From positions 1,054,001-1,118,000 of the forward strand of contig OY101115.1 in assembly GCA_956465555.1 (NCBI GenBank): DNA of 64,000 bases, given 5' to 3'. Position 1 is the stretch's first letter; each line of letters starts with the position of its first letter. Position numbers and translations under genes: made by a program. The DNA is from Nitzschia sp. pyKryTriq1. Taxonomy: Eukaryota; Bacillariophyta; Bacillariophyceae; Bacillariales; Bacillariaceae. Shown here piece by piece: positions 28,104 through 63,830 of this stretch. The notes below the pieces were generated by a model. That model was not told the DNA's origin. It searched no databases and saw nothing but the letters and a program-made list of their open reading frames with translations.

Positions 28104-28965
28104 GGGTCACTTCTTGATCTACAATGGGCCTCTAGAGCTAGTGCGATATCGGTGCTAATGCTGTTGCAAGTTGACAGAGAGAGAAAGAGAGACTCGATGT
28201 TGTTGCTATCAGATTCCACACTTGTACTTGTTTTGATCACTTTGTGGTCGCTCTTATCTTTCGCCCATCGTTGGAAGTGGTAAAACGACTTCCCGCTTCT
28301 CACGGTGAGCGAATGTTGTACGAAGGGAGAAAAATCCTGAAAGATCTTCACGTTCCGTGATTTTACAGCATGTGGCGGCGATCGCTGAAAGTTCTGCTTC
28401 CGAGCTCGGCGTGCTCGCAATGGAATAATAATCAATCGTGATAACTAGGCACTGTACAGTCCAGCACAAAGCGTCGTGACTCCTTTTGTCGTGACTGACC
28501 ACACCGTTACAAGTAATGGTACGAGTACAGTAACGCACTTGGCACTTCGACGACGACGACTACCGGTACCAGGTACAGTACGAAGAGTACCGGTACTCCT
28601 AGCACGTCGTCGCACGAGTGAATCCGTCGGTCTGTCCGTCATCCTTCTGATCTCGGTTCTCGCGCTCAAAATCTCGTGGTGGTCGGCCTTCGAAAGTTCA
28701 CAGTAGAGAGAGCGAAATTGCGGATGGCGATGGTTTTTGCTGACTGTTGACGTCTTGTGATGCCACCCATTCTGAATCCCAAACAAGCACACAAACTATC
28801 CGTCATAGACGATTGCCGAATAGGTAAGAGACTTTTGCTGCCACAGAGACCATGTTGTCTACTGCCCTCCAGCTCTTTCTCCCTTTTTGTTCCAGCTTTC
28901 TCATCATTCGCTCGTTTCTTGTTGACCGTATTCGTAGTGTAAGAAAGCATTCTGCCCCGACAAAA
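28104..28965. other. Divergent intergenic region with GTAC cluster
   Basis: Promoter region between the cyclin gene (minus) and the carboxypeptidase gene (plus). GTAC/TACCGG palindromes cluster at 28518-28605. The last 110 bp include an in-frame extension to an ATG at 28852 and a possible intron-like GTAAGAG near 28822; the true 5' end of the carboxypeptidase mRNA cannot be fixed. Confidence 0.45.
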
Positions 28966-30363
28966 ATGGTCACAATTAGTATTTCCGACACCTATGATGG
29001 TGGCAACGTCAAGTTTATCCGTCAGCAACACAACGAAAATGATTCCAGGATCATCGACGTGATTCTTCACATCAAACCCGACGTGTACACGGAACTAGAG
29101 AAGATTGGTCACATGCAATATTTCTCGTTCCGAGCTTCCATCAGCGGCCTGGACAAGGACAGCTTCCAGCCCACGCAAAAGATCAAGTACATTCTGGAGA
29201 ATGCTGAGGCAGTAAGTTATCCAGAAGCGTGGCCCAGGAGCACGGTGTGCTATTCCACCAATGTGGAAGACCCGGATAGTTGGAAGAGAAACCAGGACAC
29301 TTTCTACATGGATGGAAAACTTACTTGGGAGCACGAGCATACTCGGAATGGCAGTGTCTACTTCAGCTACTTCCCTCCCTATTCGTATTCTCGCCATTTG
29401 GGATTGATTGCTCGATGTAGTGAGTACGCAAATGTGGAGAGTCTTGGCCAGAGTTTGGAAGGCAGAGAGATGGAATGCATTTCTGTTGGAGAAGGAAATA
29501 GGACTTGCTGGATTATCCATCGTCAACATCCAGGCGAGACCATGGCAGAACATTATGCCGAGGGACTTCTGACTCGTTTGCTCGGTCTAGATACCAACGG
29601 AGAGGTTGACGATCAGGTGAAGCGTGTCCTCAAAATGTACAAGTTTTACATTGTCCCCTGTATGTGTCCTGATGGTGCCGTTCGTGGGCACCTTCGTACC
29701 AATGCAGCTGGAGCGAACTTGAACCGAGAATGGACTACCAAACGATTTTATGAAGCTCCCAGGTTGGATCGCTCTCCCGAGGTATATTGCGTTTTGAATA
29801 AGATGGATGAAACTGGCGTAGACTTATTCTTGGATGTCCACGGAGACGAAGAGATGCCGTACAACTTTCTTTCGGGAGCTGAGATGATCCCTCACTGGAA
29901 CAAACGCATGGAAAGTTTGCATGGAGCATTCTGCGCTTCCTACTCCCGGTCTAATTCTGACATGCAACAGAAGTATGGTTACCCGCCAGCAACTTCCCGC
30001 GAGACTGCGTTGGAGTACATGAATGTTGCTACCAATCAAGTCTCCAATCGATTCAACTGTTTGGGGATGACTTTGGAAATGCCATTTAAAGATTGCCTCT
30101 CGAACTCAGACCCGGACTACGGCTGGACTCCTGCTCGCTCTCGAAAATTGGGTGCTTCTGTTTTGGACCCCGTGGAATACATTCACCAGTATTTGCGAGA
30201 TGACTCGGACTTTTGGACTCGACTCCCTGCGGAGGATGCCTACATCCCGCCCACGAACGATTATCATGGAGAGCTGAAAGGACTGGATGACTTTATCCCC
30301 TTGTCCAGACGTTTCTACTCTGATGTGCACGAGTCCCATAAACCTGCTGAAGAACGAGGATAA
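28966..30363 (+). CDS. Zinc carboxypeptidase, M14 family (cytosolic carboxypeptidase-like)
   Basis: Metallopeptidase that removes C-terminal residues; this subgroup resembles bacterial M14 enzymes that start with an I-S-x-x-F/Y-D-x-G-N-[IV] motif, as here (TISISDTYDGGNVKFI). No introns from 28966; 465 aa. Catalytic elements: the zinc motif H-P-G-E (RQHPGETMAEHYAEGL), PCMCPDGAVRGHLRTNAAGANLNREW (substrate-binding Arg and N-R-x-W), the third zinc ligand in LDVHGDEEMPYNF, and a final T-L-E-M-P-F-K-D that carries the catalytic Glu. A start at 28852 would add a hydrophobic segment that might be a signal peptide (LSTALQLFLPFCSSFLIIRSF), so secretion is possible; the 28966 start matches bacterial relatives in length. 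Confidence 0.88.
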   Translation: MVTISISDTYDGGNVKFIRQQHNENDSRIIDVILHIKPDVYTELEKIGHMQYFSFRASISGLDKDSFQPTQKIKYILENAEAVSYPEAWPRSTVCYSTNVEDPDSWKRNQDTFYMDGKLTWEHEHTRNGSVYFSYFPPYSYSRHLGLIARCSEYANVESLGQSLEGREMECISVGEGNRTCWIIHRQHPGETMAEHYAEGLLTRLLGLDTNGEVDDQVKRVLKMYKFYIVPCMCPDGAVRGHLRTNAAGANLNREWTTKRFYEAPRLDRSPEVYCVLNKMDETGVDLFLDVHGDEEMPYNFLSGAEMIPHWNKRMESLHGAFCASYSRSNSDMQQKYGYPPATSRETALEYMNVATNQVSNRFNCLGMTLEMPFKDCLSNSDPDYGWTPARSRKLGASVLDPVEYIHQYLRDDSDFWTRLPAEDAYIPPTNDYHGELKGLDDFIPLSRRFYSDVHESHKPAEERG

Positions 30364-30445: not shown

Positions 30446-31057
30446 CTACCATTCCAAGTCTTCTGGGCGGACGGGGTGATCCAAAGGTATCACGCTCTCT
30501 TTGTTCTTATCTCGAGGCAGGGCTTTGCGCATATCCAGAGCATCTTCCGGTAATTCCCCAGAATAATAATCTAAAACTCTCCGGTAGGTCACATAGCCGA
30601 ATTTCGAGTACATCTCTTGTGCCAAGCGATTCGACTTTCGAACAAATAGGTCTACAAAGTATGCTGAATAAGTGTGGATACAAAGACTTTCAAAGTCATC
30701 CATCAATGATTTGGCCATTCCCAAGCGACGATACGCTGGGGCAACAGTCACGGCGGAAACATGCCCATGCCATAGTTTCCCTTCACCTTCCGCTTTCCCA
30801 AGGATATACCCCATGAGACCACCGTTGGGAGCTTCAGCAACCAGGAAGGATTCGGGCCAACGTGACATGTAGGACAAGTACTGAAAGAACAGAGCCATGA
30901 AGACCAATGATAAGCCAGGATAATCTCAAACAAGAAGACGAATCACATCGGATTGGAGACTTACGAATGACATGTTGTAGGTTTCTGTCAGCACGTCCAA
31001 ATTGATGTTGTTGAATTTCAACAGGTCATCCATGGTGAATTCACGTAAGGTCGTCAT
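30446..31057 (-). CDS. NAA20: N-terminal acetyltransferase B catalytic subunit
   Basis: GNAT acetyltransferase that acetylates proteins starting Met-Asp/Glu/Asn/Gln co-translationally. Exons 31057-30965 and 30880-30446 with an 84-bp intron (30964-30881) joining Y-N-M-S-F | Y-L-S-Y-M; 175 aa, against 178 in human. Conserved: MTTLREFTMDDLLKFNNINLD at the N-terminus, YLSYMSRWPESF, GYILGKAEG, HGHVSAVTVAPAYRRLGMAKSLM (acetyl-CoA Q/R-x-x-G-x-G/A loop), and the C-terminal VDLFVRKSN..A..MY.K.GY. The in-frame ATG at 31138 is less likely than 31057 because the family begins with M-T-T-[LI]-R. The 3' end lies 82 bp from the carboxypeptidase stop (convergent). Confidence 0.95.
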
Positions 31058-32355
31058 CTCGATGATTGATTGATTCCTCACTCTTTCTTCGTTTTTGGCT
31101 CGTGATGGAAGTATCTTGCTGAGGTCCCTTCTTGACAACGTTGTGTTGAAAACAAGTTAGGGTGAGTGGTGTGTGGTGTGAATTGTGAATTGCAGCAGTA
31201 AAAAATAGGGAAAATATCCAGCGTTGTCAACAAGCGACAACTCAACAGGGAGCTGGGGGAATTCGGTACTTTGGGGCTTATTAATTCGGTTTACAACTCG
31301 GGGAAAGCCCCCGATTTGTGCGACCACTTTGACCAATACGAACACTCAGACCCGAGTGTTGAGTCAGGGGTAAATAAGACTCCTGTGTTGAGTGATGTCT
31401 GGCGAGGTGGTACCGGTACTACGGACGATGATGATTCCATCCGATGGTCCGGTCGGCCGAGTGGATCATGATCCTGGAGCTGATTTTCCGCAAGTGTACC
31501 GGTACCGGTATAGTGGTTTGGGAACCACTACCAGTTTTTGGTCTGATAAGTCGTACGAGTTACGAATATTTCGTTTCCAATATTATGAGCTATTTTATCT
31601 CTATACTTTCTGCTTTTATGAATGTTCGAGATGGCCCCATGGGTCTGTTACACATGGTTTCCATGGGCCTTTAACTCGTGCTTCGTTGGGCCCAGAGCTC
31701 TTGATCTACTGGACGTATAGTCCTCGGTCTCGTAACAGTATTGAGTAACGAGTCGAGTCCTGTATCGTCCGTACGTCGCTCGTTGTACGTCATCATCCGA
31801 ACGTTTCTCAACAAGCGTCGAGTTCCGAGTCGTATCAGTCCATTGTTCATTGAATATTCGGATGAAATCGAGAAACTCTACCGGCCGGTGTCGGCAGACT
31901 ACTACTCTGGAGAGCAAGAGACTTCAGAGATATCCTTCTATCACCAGTAACCCACAATCTGATCTATTGCAGCAAAGCTACGCTTTCTTCAAAGATTCCT
32001 TCTCATGCTGATTTTCATTCTTCTTGGCTCCAGTCTTGTTGCTGATGATTCTCAGGAGGAGCAGAAAGATGCACCACTGCACTCAGAACGAAGTACTGGT
32101 ACTGCTTACTCTAGCCTATACAAACGCCAGATCGCAGCGACTGTCCTCACCTCAAGCGTGACTATAATGGACTATCATACGAAAAATATATATGCATGTA
32201 ATACTCTACTACTCACTCGTACTAGCTACTACTAATGATACAAGTTCCTCTAATATTTTATGAGTCTTATTCTATACATGCCAAGAACAAGTTATAGCCA
32301 GGGGGTGACAGCATTTCATATCGACCATCTTCGGCTCACTTTGTATTTATTTCAA
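31058..32355. other. Long intergenic region, no convincing gene
   Basis: About 1.3 kb between NAA20 and the SECIS-bearing 3' UTR. It has TACCGG words at 31411-31425 and 31495-31515, a palindromic CACTCAGACCCGAGTGTTGAGT near 31343-31365, and short open frames with no family features or consistent codon use. The right-hand end is presumably the tail of the 3' UTR of the selenoprotein-like gene. Confidence 0.4.
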
Positions 32356-32430
32356 GTCTGTACTTCCTGTTTCACCAACGCACGCGAGCTATGAGGCTGT
32401 TTGTGCATTGGGTCATTACGGAAGCAAAGA
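32356..32430 (-). promoter_or_regulatory. SECIS-like element in the 3' UTR of the gene at 32601-33527
   Basis: Read on the minus strand this folds as a eukaryotic selenocysteine insertion element. Lower helix: GCUUCC (32425-32420) with GGAAGU (32367-32362). Core: AUGA at 32416-32413 opposite UGAA at 32374-32371, which can form the tandem G-A / A-G quartet. Upper helix: a 9-bp pairing of CCAAUGCAC (32411-32403) with GUGCGUUGG (32383-32375), one pair being G-U. The unpaired AA follows directly at 32402-32401, ten bases after the AUGA. The 19-base apical part can form a 3-bp mini-helix (AGC/GCU), as in form II. It begins about 185 bases after the stop codon. Confidence 0.7.
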
Positions 32431-32600
32431 AAGGAAAGCATGCCCTTTTTGAAGCGGTACCTTCGATCCAGGCAAGTACAATATGTAAATCAAGAGAAGG
32501 CGATGCTGCTTTTTCATTTCGATTCCAGGACAGTCCTCGTATAGTCTGACTGTCTGTCTGTCTGTGAGAGCATTCAGTGAACAACATCGTGTTGGTTCTA

Positions 32601-33527
32601 CTATTCTCGGTCAGAGGACGAGAAACCATTCAGCTCCCGGTGAACATTGTCGTATTTCCCCTTCATTTTCCATGTGCACTTTCCGTTGTGGCATATGCTT
32701 CGCAGTTCCTCGTCACTAGATACTTCTGGGAGCGACGACGACCCATCGTCTTCCGACGCTCCTCCTCCATTCATTCGTTCCGTTTCCCTTCGCGCTAGCT
32801 CCTTTGCTTTACGCATCGACCACTGACCAAAAGGTTCCCACCCAGTGCGCTCTCCGTGTAACTCAATCTTCTCTCGGCGTATTTCAGAGTGACATCGACA
32901 CCCAAACATTCGCTCCACTTTTACCACTTTTCCAGCGGGTCCATCAACAATTGAAAACGCAAACGGCGCGTACTTCTTCTTGCAGACTGCCACTCCAATC
33001 GTCTCACGCCCACACCACAGGCCTTCCCCCCATCGCTCGTTGATGGATTGAATCGCCATACTTTGCGTATCTGTAGAAGCCGATCGCGAAAACATACTTC
33101 CTCCATACATTTCACCACCAATTCCAACAGGATAGCCGCAAACGAATCCCAGAGGTACCCTGAAAAGTGATTGTACAAATAATGTGAGAAAACAGTCAAA
33201 AGTATAAAAGTGATGAGAATGAATTCAACAATCATTCACTCCAAGACTTGATGATTCGATGGTGCCAAACTAACACGAAGCCTAACGCCATCGATCGCCA
33301 GCCACGACCCACCACGACCGACTACACGCAACGCAAATCACTTACCGCCCTGGAATAGCGCTTGCAGCAACTTTGGATCAGTCAGAGGGAAGGATGCCGT
33401 AGTCTTCCCCATAGATTCGCTGCTCGTCTCTCTTGAGAGCTAGCTTCCGCTTGGATCGACGAAGGCCCCCATGTCCCTTGGTGAGGCCTTCCATTACGGT
33501 GGACTTTCGCTTACTTCGTCGTCTCAT
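32601..33527 (-). CDS. Candidate selenoprotein of unknown family (in-frame TGA at codon 50)
   Basis: Exon 1 is 33527-33346, intron 33345-33160 (GTAAGT...TTTTCAG, 186 bp), exon 2 33159-32601. The frames join exactly (I-P-G-R-V-P-L-G-F-V-C-G-Y-P-V) and give 247 codons including the final TAG, interrupted only by TGA at 33380-33378 (I-L-P-S-D-TGA-S-K-V-A-A). With the SECIS-like hairpin in the 3' UTR the simplest reading is that TGA encodes selenocysteine. Visible parts: a basic N-terminus (RRRSKRKS, RRSKRKLALKRDE), the Sec region, a Gly-rich stretch PVGIGGEMYGGSMFS, then WGEGLWCGRETIGVAVCKKK, FGCRCHSEIRRE, and an acidic/Ser C-terminus with ICHNGKC. No known selenoprotein family is recognised, and the Sec is not in a CxxU motif. 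Alternatives: a nonsense mutation, or translation from the ATG at 33110 that skips the TGA. Confidence 0.6.
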
Positions 33528-34333
33528 GATGGTGTGACGCTGATAGAAAAATGACCTGTAGTGTACGAGTACGAATGAATAGAGCTATGTACAGTAAACT
33601 TCGTCCAAGGTCCAAGCACGGCGCATCACGGTACTGCGTCTCCGAGAAGTTCGGATCACCGCCACACTTTCCAACCGAGACAAAGGAGAAGGAATAATCC
33701 ACGAATTTCGAGGACCTGGTACTTTGTCCACGCAGGGACTCCGTAGAGGGGGAATCGTGTGTCTCATTTGCGATTTTTTTAGTTCCGAGAGCGATGCTGC
33801 GTGCGAGGGAGACGTGGACCTTTTCTGTTGACGGCGGCCGGCGCGCGGAGGCATCAGCATCAATCAATCGATCATCATCGATCGCGCCAAATAAAAACCA
33901 ACGAGGATGGACGGAGAGCGAGAGTGGATGATGATGATGTGGCGTCAAAACATGCGAATTACATTATTATTTTAAAAGTACTGCAGACGTCAGCACTGCT
34001 GGGATTGGAGGCAGATGATTTTTTGAGATTGTACCAATTGCTCCCATTTTGAATTTGAAGCGTGAGAGGGGGGCGAGGATCAGTACTGGGACGTACCTGT
34101 ACCCTGCGGTACCCCTGGTACTGTACGAGTGTACCGGTGCGGGACTGTTTATGTACAGTATGTACTGTGGTCCAACAATATTTGTCTAATCTACGTAGCA
34201 GGGTAGCACGTAGTCTACCAGTAGTAAGATAAAAACTTCAAAACTGTAGGTCTCTACTAGTTGAGAGTAGCTAGCTTGATCTCGCAATGTACTCGAAGTA
34301 CAGGATAGGAGTAGTATTCTACATTCTTTTTTA
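33528..34333. other. Intergenic region upstream of the candidate selenoprotein gene
   Basis: About 800 bp; GTAC-type words at 34090-34140 (GTACCTGTACCCTGCGGTACC and relatives) and around 33562-33600, CATCATCATC-type runs near 33855-33945. A CCGGCGCGCGG GC patch lies near 33836-33848. No gene seen. Confidence 0.4.
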
Positions 34334-35794
34334 CTACCGGCAGCCACACCACTCGGTTCCACTTTGCAACTGAACAACTTCGGGACATATTTGCAGCAAT
34401 ACGTAGCTCATTCGGATACGATCTCGTTTCCATTCTGCTTGCTGACGAAAAGTTGGCTCGGCCAAACAACTGTGGACCTGATCTGCTGGATGATCTATGT
34501 ACAGCGGAGAAGAGGCTATGCTCAAGGTTCGTGCTGTTTCTGCAGCGACTAGCATGAAAGGATACAAACCGCTCACGGGGTCTGGTAAACGCAAAGATTC
34601 TGGGTATAAACGAATCATTTTGAACAACGATGTCTCATCAATACGACCACTTTCCAATGCGTAGTGCAGAGGCAATCGCCCTTGGTGGTCTTCCACCGTC
34701 ACGCTTTCCGGATATTCGTCGAGCAAGAGCTCGACTACAGACTTGAGTCGTTCAGCACCAGCGCGGTCAAAATGAGGCGGCACAAAGCGGTGCGTCACTG
34801 GTGGCATTTGTACAGCATGATGTATGGGTAGCATGCCCTGTTCGTCGAGGGTATAGACGTCCCCTGTAATGTTGAAAAGGGACTTATACTTAGGGTACAA
34901 AGCCAGTCGCAGAAGGAGAGGCGGGCATCGTGGAGCGGCGCATATCTCGTGGAGAGAGCATCCGTGAGGTTCACTGGAACAAGAAATACTCTGAGTTGAG
35001 CTCAATGCTCTGATCATCAATAATGAGTACAAAAGGTATTGCTCTGGAGCGATAACCGTCATCCACGACATCCCGTCGTTGACGTAGTCAATATTCTTGT
35101 CGCCCTTTTCCATTGAGATGGCCCATCGAAATCGTAGAACATTTTTCCACAGTAGAGAAAGAGGATTGTCTCCGTGTTTATCGTCTATCGAAACGATATT
35201 CGGGTCGGCCCTTAGGAGCATCTTCAGGACTTCTTTTTGAATGGTCATGTTATGGCCACACATGACATGCAGTGGATAAGATCCTCCTGCCATTGCAACG
35301 GATGCAAGGTGACGCCCTTCCCGTTTACTCTTCGGATCTTGACTTTCCATCAGCATAGCCACGATCGATTCGACATGCCAGGAATTTCGATAGATTGCCA
35401 TATGCAATGCCGTCACTCCTTTGCCATTCTGCTGCTCCAATGATGTTGGTACTGGCATAGTAGTAAATTCGTCGGCAATCCTTGACGACATCATCCCCAG
35501 CACTTCACCTTTACTGCAGTCGACAAAAGCATGGTGCCTCTCAAGTAAGGCCAAATAGTTTTTGATGGCTGTAGAAGGTGCATGCATGGCAAGCATTCGA
35601 TGTAGTGACGTGTCGCCATGACAGTCGTTCCCGTCCGCGCGATCCAAGAAATAAAACGTTGATAGCTGCGCCGCATCGTCAGTTCGATCGAATTTTCCTA
35701 TTGACAGATCATCTTCCTTATTCCAATCCAGAGATGGAAATTGGCGACTGGCCGACTTGATAATGCGGGACAGCTCCCGGTCAACTTCGTCCAT
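34334..35794 (-). CDS. Ankyrin-repeat protein, 486 aa
   Basis: Single exon. An N-terminal segment (MDEVDRELSRIIKSASRQFPSLDW) is followed by ankyrin-type repeats whose sequence signature is H/Y-x-x-L/C plus P-L-H: GDTSLHRMLAMH, GVTALHMAIYRN, SYPLHVMCGHN, DNPLSLLWKN, CSLHEICAAP, MLPIHHAVQMP and GRLPLHYALESG. These repeats, with spacing wider than the canonical 33 residues, are common in large diatom ankyrin families of unknown role; they mediate protein-protein contact. The C-terminal part (GLYPFMLVAAETARTLSIAS...FEVLQICPEVVQLQ) is helical and may hold a last degenerate repeat. No transmembrane segment or signal peptide is visible. Confidence 0.85.
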   Translation of the reverse strand: MDEVDRELSRIIKSASRQFPSLDWNKEDDLSIGKFDRTDDAAQLSTFYFLDRADGNDCHGDTSLHRMLAMHAPSTAIKNYLALLERHHAFVDCSKGEVLGMMSSRIADEFTTMPVPTSLEQQNGKGVTALHMAIYRNSWHVESIVAMLMESQDPKSKREGRHLASVAMAGGSYPLHVMCGHNMTIQKEVLKMLLRADPNIVSIDDKHGDNPLSLLWKNVLRFRWAISMEKGDKNIDYVNDGMSWMTVIAPEQYLLYSLLMIRALSSTQSISCSSEPHGCSLHEICAAPRCPPLLLRLALYPKYKSLFNITGDVYTLDEQGMLPIHHAVQMPPVTHRFVPPHFDRAGAERLKSVVELLLDEYPESVTVEDHQGRLPLHYALESGRIDETSLFKMIRLYPESLRLPDPVSGLYPFMLVAAETARTLSIASSPLYIDHPADQVHSCLAEPTFRQQAEWKRDRIRMSYVLLQICPEVVQLQSGTEWCGCR

Positions 35795-61329: not shown

Positions 61330-63830
61330 GAGTAGAAGTGCTCATAATTTTAGTAAGCGGACATTACGCTAAAGAGACACGAGAGTTTGTAACACGCTTC
61401 GAAGCGAAAGGTTAAGACGAACCTCGTTTGAAGCAACGTTTCGCTACTGAAATTGATCAACAGATAAGAGCTTGAACACAGAGCTAAGGTAAGAGAGCTG
61501 AGTGGAAATTGTGTCTACCAGTTACTCGAGATATTGTGAGAAGCGAAAGGTCGCTATCACGGATAAAAGAAGACAAGGCGAATCAGCAAGGGGCTTACAA
61601 CGACAATGAGTAAGGTTGAAGACAAGGCGATTCGCGTCATCACGTTCAGTGGAAAACAGTCTGAATGGGCCGTATGGGAGGCGAAGTTCCTCGCCAAGGC
61701 GAACCGAAAGGGATTCAAGAAAGTCTTGTTGGGCCAAGAAAGGGCGCCAAAGGATGACGAGTCGATTGATGAATCGACCGATGAAGGTAAAGAATCCAAG
61801 CGAACTCGTGAGGCTAATGAGACAGCCTACGAAGAGATGTTGTTAAGTATCGACGGAACCTCGAAGACAGGACGTGTTGCTTTTAACATTGTGAAACTAA
61901 GTAAGACGAAAGACCTCAAGGAAGGAGATTCGCATCTGGCCTGGACGAAGTTGCGTAATAAATATGCCACGAAAAGTGCGCCATCTCTTTTGGCAATGAA
62001 GAAGGAATTTACGAACTCGCGACTTGTCAACAAGAAAGACGACCCCGACGAATGGGTTACTGAACTGGAAGACTTGAGAGTGCAAATGGAAGATCAAGGT
62101 TCCACCATGGAGGATATGGAGTTTATGATGCATATTCTGAACAACCTGCCAAAGGAATACGAGATCACGCAATCGAAACTCGAAGACAAGCTTGAGATCG
62201 ACGAGTTGACGATTGACAAAATTCGAACTGAACTGAACCTCAAGTACAAACGAATGTTCCCAAAAGGAGGACAATCGTCAGGAGATGACAATGAAGATAC
62301 CGCGCTATTCAGCGGCGGATTCAAGGGAAAATGCAACAACTGCGGAAAAACCGGACACAAGCGTCAAAACTGCCCGGATAATAAGCACAGCGGTGGCGGC
62401 GGAGGCGGTAAATTCCAAGGCAATTGTAATCATTGCGGAAAGAAGGGCCATAAAGAAGTAAATTGTTGGTCTAAACATGGAAAACCGGACAAGGCGAATA
62501 TTGGGTCGGACGGAAAGAATGATAAAGCGGAAATCGTACTCACTGCCACCCAACCCCATGATTTCGCAATCGGAAATGATGAATACGGTCTTAGCGGAAG
62601 AGAAATCAAGATGACCAACGATACCTGGATCGGCGATAGCGGAGCATCTTGTCATATGACGAACGATTCCACAGGAATGTTCGATACCACAGAAATTGAT
62701 GAAGAAATCACCATCGGAAACGGAAAACCGATGAAAGCGACTCGCGTCGGAAAAATCAAGGTCGACGTGATACAGAAGAACGGTAAAACAGAGCGGATCA
62801 CAGTGACAAACGTGAAGCTCGTTCCCGAACTTTATTTCAAGTTATTCAGTATTACTGCAGCTTTGGACAAAGGTTTCAAGATTGGAAACGACGGTCGGAT
62901 TATTTACCTCGAAAAAGGAGACTTTCATCTCGCATTCGACAAAATATTCACGACAAAGACTGGATATTTGCTTGGAGTCGACATGATTCAACAGTCGAAC
63001 GAAATGGCTCAAGCAAATTTGATGACCGGAAATTCGATTGATATCAATGAATTCCACAAGATATTGGGTCACCCGTACGAAGAATCGGTGCGACAGACCG
63101 CGAAGTCGCTAGGATTGAAAGCGACTGGAAAGTTCATTAAATGCGAGGATTGTGCCGTATCGAAGGCACGCCGCAAGAAATTGAATAAAGAGACTGTGAA
63201 ACGAAGCAACAGGAAGGGAGATCGCATGTTCCTGGATATCTCGTCGATCAAAGCCGAGAGTTTCAGTATGAAGAAATTTTGGCTGCTTTTGGTCGACGAT
63301 AACACTGATTGTTGCTTCAGTTTCTTTCTAACCGCGAAAAGCGAATTGAGCGAGACTGTGAGACAGTTTATTAAAGACGTCAAGGCACAACATGGCATCG
63401 AAGTCAAGACAATTCGATGCGACAATGCTGGCGAAAACAAGGCATTAGAAGCGGACTGCAAGAAAGACGGACTCGGAATTTCGTTCGAGTTTACTGCGTC
63501 AGATACCCCGCAACAAAATGGCCGAGTTGAAAGAAAGTTTGCTTCTCTCTATGGAAGAGTGAGAGCAATGTTAAACGGTGCCAGAGTCACCAAAGACTTG
63601 CGTGGGAAATTGTGGGCGGAAGGTGCAAACACTGCGACCGACAACGAAAATATCATCGTTGCAGAAGGAGAATCCGAAAGCGCATACAAGAAATTTCATG
63701 GCACGGACCCCAAATATGCTCGTTATTTAAGGAAGTTTGGTGAGATCGCAATTGTGACGGATCACACTAAAATCAAGGGCAAGATTGAAGATCGAGGCAA
63801 ACCATGCCTGTTGTAGTAAAAAACCAGTAA
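61330..63830 (+). mobile_element. Incomplete Copia-type (CoDi-like) retroelement: gag-protease-integrase
   Basis: A 736-codon reading frame (61606-63816) encodes, in order: a gag-like region with WEAKFLAKANRKGFK, two CCHC zinc knuckles (CNNCGKTGHKRQNC and CNHCGKKGHKEVNC), an aspartic protease (GDSGASCHM), the GAG-pre-integrase zinc region (HKILGHPYEESVRQ...CEDCAVSKARR), and the integrase core with D-I-S-S and a DNAGE block plus the Q-Q-N-G-R-V-E-R motif. Gag followed by protease then integrase is the order of the Copia superfamily, and diatom genomes carry the CoDi group. Reverse transcriptase and RNase H are not found in the window and I could not identify a pair of LTRs, so the element looks broken, with about one break. 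The open frame suggests it is relatively young. Confidence 0.9.

Follow-up and report, generated by a model that had tools for sequence, protein, structure and literature searches.

Most known selenoprotein families are thioredoxin-fold enzymes, and new eukaryotic families are rare. SELENOH is a nuclear selenoprotein with basic motifs, a CxxU motif and a thioredoxin-like fold. Among the algae, the list published for Thalassiosira pseudonana contains GPx, SelT, TR, SPS2, SelM, SelU, MsrA, PDI, a methyltransferase, a peroxiredoxin and a thioredoxin-like protein (PMC2375036), while the three novel families PDI_e, AhpC_b and SymSEP are thioredoxin-like or AhpC proteins (PMC7539508). Algal selenoproteins which, like the candidate described below, have no known function include hypothetical selenoproteins 1-3, assigned in the 2007 table to two Ostreococcus species only and not to T. 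pseudonana (PMC2375036), and 'Hypo', a family named in an algal survey with no description in the main-text parts examined (PMC7539508).

Analysis of a 64,000-nucleotide stretch of the genome of Nitzschia sp. pyKryTriq1 (the window) leads us to conclude, with high confidence, that a single-copy diatom gene encodes a selenoprotein of 246 residues from an undescribed family, the UGA at codon 50 specifying selenocysteine (Sec) by means of a SECIS element. The gene resembles those of GPx, SelT and SPS2 in having an in-frame UGA, conserved flanks, a Cys homologue and a SECIS in the 3' UTR. It differs from them in a protein body without convincing Pfam or PDB-sequence match, and in a U-S-x-V context in place of CxxU or UxxC. 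In the proposed mechanism, the mRNA would be spliced once, the hairpin of the 3' UTR would recruit the Sec-decoding apparatus, the UGA would be read as Sec by tRNA-Sec(UCA) and translation would terminate at the TAG. Computational support comes from the frame, the conserved flanks, the Cys equivalent, the Sec genes and tRNA, and an AATGAC core like that of predicted control elements; the actual splicing and Sec insertion we infer.

The features of the locus are collected in Table 1. The preliminary description had proposed that two exons join in phase across a GT-AG intron, with the TGA as the sole interruption of 247 codons, and both points were reproduced: the spliced exons give 247 codons including the final TAG, and hence a 246-residue product, with one internal stop. 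The Sec context, P-S-D-U-S-K-V, has no Cys within three residues, forming neither CxxU nor UxxC, which bears out the earlier remark that it is not a CxxU redox motif. When the 169-residue body was searched against its own genome (40.65 Mb, 20 contigs), one match was found.

Table 1. Features of the candidate selenoprotein gene and its hairpin, in positions of the window
Feature	Position	Strand	Details
Exon 1	33346..33527	(-)	182 nt; ATG start, basic N-terminus, two RRSKRK motifs
Exon 1 conserved segment		(-)	YGxDYGILPSD-U-SxVAASAIPGR; N-terminus kept in P0121, P0122, P0132
Sec flanks in exon 1		(-)	Kept additionally in P0123 and P0055
In-frame TGA, codon 50	33378..33380	(-)	Proposed selenocysteine codon
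Intron	33160..33345	(-)	186 nt, GTAAGT...TTTTCAG
Exon 2	32601..33159	(-)	559 nt; conserved body, invariant Cys/His/Trp pattern, TAG end
SECIS-type hairpin, presumed 3' UTR	32362..32425	(-)	AATGAC...TGAA quartet, 9-bp upper helix, AAAC at apical loop
Hairpin lower helix	32425-32420 / 32367-32362	(-)	GCTTCC / GGAAGT
Hairpin quartet	32416-32413 / 32374-32371	(-)	ATGA / TGAA
Hairpin upper helix	32411-32403 / 32383-32375	(-)	9 bp, CCAATGCAC / GTGCGTTGG
Hairpin apical loop	from 32402	(-)	AAAC

The Nitzschia genome makes selenocysteine. Its Sec-decoding machinery includes three tRNA-Sec genes with anticodon TCA (L002, L003 and L004), SepSecS, and an SPS2 which itself has an in-frame TGA (LKG*ACK), whereas a search for EFSec returned matches that were not separable from other GTPases. 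Further TGA codons were found at the active site of three GPx genes (NVASN*G, NVACL*G and NVASM*G) and in frame in a SelT-like gene (CAS*GSK). Two of the tRNA-Sec(UCA) genes are identical and in tandem, with starts 161 bases apart, and the third differs from them by one compensated acceptor-stem pair.

Homologues of the candidate were collected by a protein search with exon 2, which gave 309 proteins at E<=10, 120 of them listed; the listed matches and additions from further protein searches form a set of 136. The organisms named among the matches listed were all diatoms (Nitzschia, Craspedostauros and Seminavis, with Thalassiosira added later), and these few named organisms include both pennate and centric diatoms. 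Five homologues span the TGA column, 23 contain the exon junction (ASAIPxRVPLGF or a close variant) with the Sec column absent, 40 run into VPLGF out of unrelated sequence (RVPLGF in 34 of them), and 68 start within the body. The entry into VPLGF from unrelated sequence would correspond to intron read-in, consistent with an intron ending AG|G. As a counterpoint to the selenoprotein explanation, the Craspedostauros transcriptome protein P0027 reaches RVPLGF from a different N-terminus. In the exon 2 part of a 71-row alignment (A2), C59, C87, H90, W107 and W163 are each present in 71/71 sequences, C156 and C161 each in 69/70, and C7, the Cys of VPLGF.CG, in 45/45.

The encoded peptide shows conservation both before and after the TGA. 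A Cys at the codon-50 position, sought in homologues as suggested beforehand, was found in one of the five spanning sequences: P0055 has GYGVLPSDCSHVAASAIPARVPLGF where the candidate has GEDYGILPSD-TGA-SKVAASAIPGRVPLGF, placing the Cys exactly at the TGA. The other four (P0121, P0122, P0123 and P0132) have Trp at the column (YGILPSDWS), P0123 reading YGILPSDWSHIAASAIPGRVPLGF. Three of these, P0121, P0122 and P0132, share the whole N-terminus (VRRRSKR.[SA]TV.EGLTKAHGGLRRSKRKLALK...YGILPSDWS), and their similarity is lost shortly past the Sec site, as it would be where an exon stops. The Trp of the four homologues is probably a product of gene calling with TGA=W (table 4). The parts of P0121, P0122 and P0132 judged non-coding contain 15 W in 371 residues, an excess with P = 0.0001 to 0.009 if TGG alone is assumed to yield W at 1.25 to 2%, and 0.15 if at 3%, and such gene calling is therefore indicated for these three; P0123 has no W excess (5/257), so for it the composition lends the table-4 explanation no support.

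Homologues starting downstream of the TGA, which had been named beforehand as evidence against a selenoprotein, do occur: in 22 of the 23 junction-class sequences the first residue is the second or third past the Sec column. Starts at this place would be expected if a stop stood at the column itself. One of the 22, P0034, occurs also in transcriptome collections (MMETSP). Two others, P0070 (78%) and P0059 (71%), are the closest relatives of P0055 in the 71-row A2, and the presence of Cys in P0055 against relatives starting past the column suggests a recent Sec/Cys exchange. The remaining junction-class sequence, gene model P0114 of Seminavis, keeps MAKRRSKRKATVLE and jumps to VAASAIP. This public Seminavis robusta model omits the Sec codon, probably owing to an erroneous intron prediction, and all public models carrying organism names among the homologues miss that codon.

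The UGA at codon 50 is very probably decoded as selenocysteine, and three other accounts of it were weighed. Alternative splicing could remove the TGA through an extra intron, with donor GTAAGC at 33514 and acceptor at 33371 or 33350, leaving the frame intact without codon 50; in an enumeration of GT and GC donors these were the options that kept the frame and had a GTAAG donor close to consensus, and the same segment is omitted by P0114. Such an intron would, however, discard RRSKRK...YGxDYGILPSD-x-SxV, a segment whose amino-acid sequence is conserved in P0121, P0122 and P0132 and, in part, also in P0123 and P0055, and this account leaves the hairpin unexplained. P0034, despite its place in transcriptome collections, starts just past the Sec column all the same, and we regard removal of the TGA by splicing as very improbable. 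Much the same judgement applies to the TGA as an ordinary stop which closes a short upstream ORF, with re-initiation further downstream, for instance at the Met at 33110. In the candidate no Met lies between the TGA and 33110, and re-initiation there would lose the 27 intervening residues, which are conserved and include VPLGF.CG with its invariant Cys; moreover, P0055 continues across the site with a Cys, and conservation extends to the peptide encoded upstream of the TGA. In favour of re-initiation, the body-start class makes up 68 of the 136 homologues. Several homologues also have a Met two residues past the Sec column, a possible place to re-initiate, and in these the account is less firmly excluded.

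It is extremely unlikely that the UGA is read as Trp, or that Trp is the family residue and was lost from the Nitzschia copy. Trp does stand at the site in four of the five spanning sequences, and for P0123 the absence of W excess means that composition does not back the table-4 explanation there. Against this stand the W-rich non-coding parts of P0121, P0122 and P0132, the tRNA-Sec(UCA) of the genome, the Cys of one homologue, and the 22 others that begin as if after a stop. The selenoprotein reading is supported by the conservation across the TGA, the Cys of P0055, the post-TGA starts, the Sec machinery and a SECIS core like that predicted for other Sec genes of the genome.

A SECIS layout about 185 bases past the TAG had been described for this gene. 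It proved to be as described, with 184 bases from TAG to ATGA, and the combination of in-frame TGA and SECIS-type hairpin in one gene was confirmed. The hairpin has the ATGA/GA quartet, the upper helix and an apical AA, in the presumed 3' UTR. The 9-bp upper helix formed in all four stretches folded with ViennaRNA, a 261-nt UTR piece among them, and the 66-nt element alone has a folding energy of -23.7 kcal/mol. Among five neighbouring ORFs compared with Pfam, the closest one downstream on the candidate's strand is a GNAT acetyltransferase (30446-30907), which places the hairpin where the 3' UTR of the candidate should be.

A strict SECIS pattern scan of both strands of the window returned two matches, the candidate at 12.7 and another at 6.3. 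The same scan gave 10 matches, the best at 9.6, in a genomic background of 20 stretches of 10 kb elsewhere in the genome (both strands, 400,000 strand-bases), and 112 matches, the best at 10.3, in 4 Mb of order-2 random sequence; the candidate outscores every one of them, more than chance would give. It was blank on eight Rdx/GPx-family loci, five of which have a TGA inside the match, and even with lax thresholds six TGA-containing loci gave no score above 3.8. The strict scan is thus specific but insensitive, since it missed control loci, and a fold-constrained scan was therefore used. The Rfam SECIS_1 model had no match in 32200-33800, and none was reported for the whole genome, where 133 of 718 first-look candidates were scored.

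The fold-constrained scan was based on an [AG]TGA core, with the apical AA/CC requirement on or off, and the 800-nt 3' regions of five of the TGA-containing SPS2, GPx and SelT-like genes served as controls. With AA/CC required, the candidate matched and none of the five control genes did. Once the requirement was dropped, five structured [AG]TGA matches were obtained from four of the control genes, the fifth (L019) having none in its 800-nt region. The core AATGAC is common to all five structured control matches and to the candidate; the control elements are predictions of the present analysis and the core was spotted post hoc. The controls score -33.9, -23.3, -20.4, -18.5 and -7.8, compared with -24.2 for the candidate, and lie 74 to 368 nt from the stop, compared with 184 nt. 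The candidate thus shares a predicted AATGAC SECIS core with four of these selenoprotein genes of its own genome, and differs from the predicted control elements in its apical AA, which they lack.

Within the window the candidate is the only structured AATGAC match on either strand. The background contains 126 occurrences of AATGAC, two of them structured, at -10.7 and -10.0 (400,000 strand-bases); both are stronger than the weakest control match (L018, -7.8), which therefore does not rise above background. When AA/CC is required and any [AG]TGA core allowed, 2 of 54 background matches equal or exceed the energy of the candidate, so that energy by itself does not settle the matter. At L017, a GPx locus that lacks a TGA, a match of -23.1 lies just before the domain. 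Predicted SECIS elements with the AATGAC core and without the usual apical AA were seen at L015 (contig C7), L020, L018 and L041, and at L015 two AATGAC hairpins occur within one 3' region. The core could serve as a search key for further selenoproteins in the Nitzschia genome.

The decoding of UGA proposed here is standard, and it is the protein family that appears to be new, being set apart by the searches and by the published lists, although it may overlap 'Hypo' (PMC7539508). The candidate protein had no convincing Pfam match, no PDB-sequence match and no fold match; it has no recognisable domain. Nothing resembling it stands in the T. pseudonana list (PMC2375036), and a protein of this kind is absent from the selenoprotein lists in the open-licence literature examined. 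Within the Pfam, PDB-sequence and fold searches and the T. pseudonana list, the suggestion of a new family made at the outset is supported (PMC2375036). The candidate would extend the short list of selenium-needing proteins by one new family; it could help to explain why diatoms need selenium, and labelling and knock-out work would have a defined target in it.

As to its role, the protein model is weak near the Sec site. The Cys/His pattern suggests a metal site, and the two RRSKRK motifs may direct the protein to the nucleus. Our guess is a redox function, with the selenol on a flexible segment adjoining a Cys/His-rich, possibly metal-binding core. SELENOH, with its basic motifs and nuclear location, is a loose functional analogue, but it has a CxxU motif and a thioredoxin-like fold, whereas the candidate matches no solved structure. 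A fuller picture, of a diatom-wide nuclear selenoprotein outside the thioredoxin fold, with its selenol beside a Cys/His metal-binding core (C59, C87, H90, C156 and C161 of exon 2) and acting as a selenium- and redox-sensitive regulator, is speculative and unlikely.

An ankyrin-repeat protein, identified with Pfam at 34334-35794 (-), is encoded upstream of the candidate gene and on its strand. The plus strand carries an M14 peptidase of the cytosolic-carboxypeptidase-like type at 28852-30363 (Pfam) and, at 61606-63816, an open frame with Copia-type gag and Pol_BBD, belonging to a retrotransposon.
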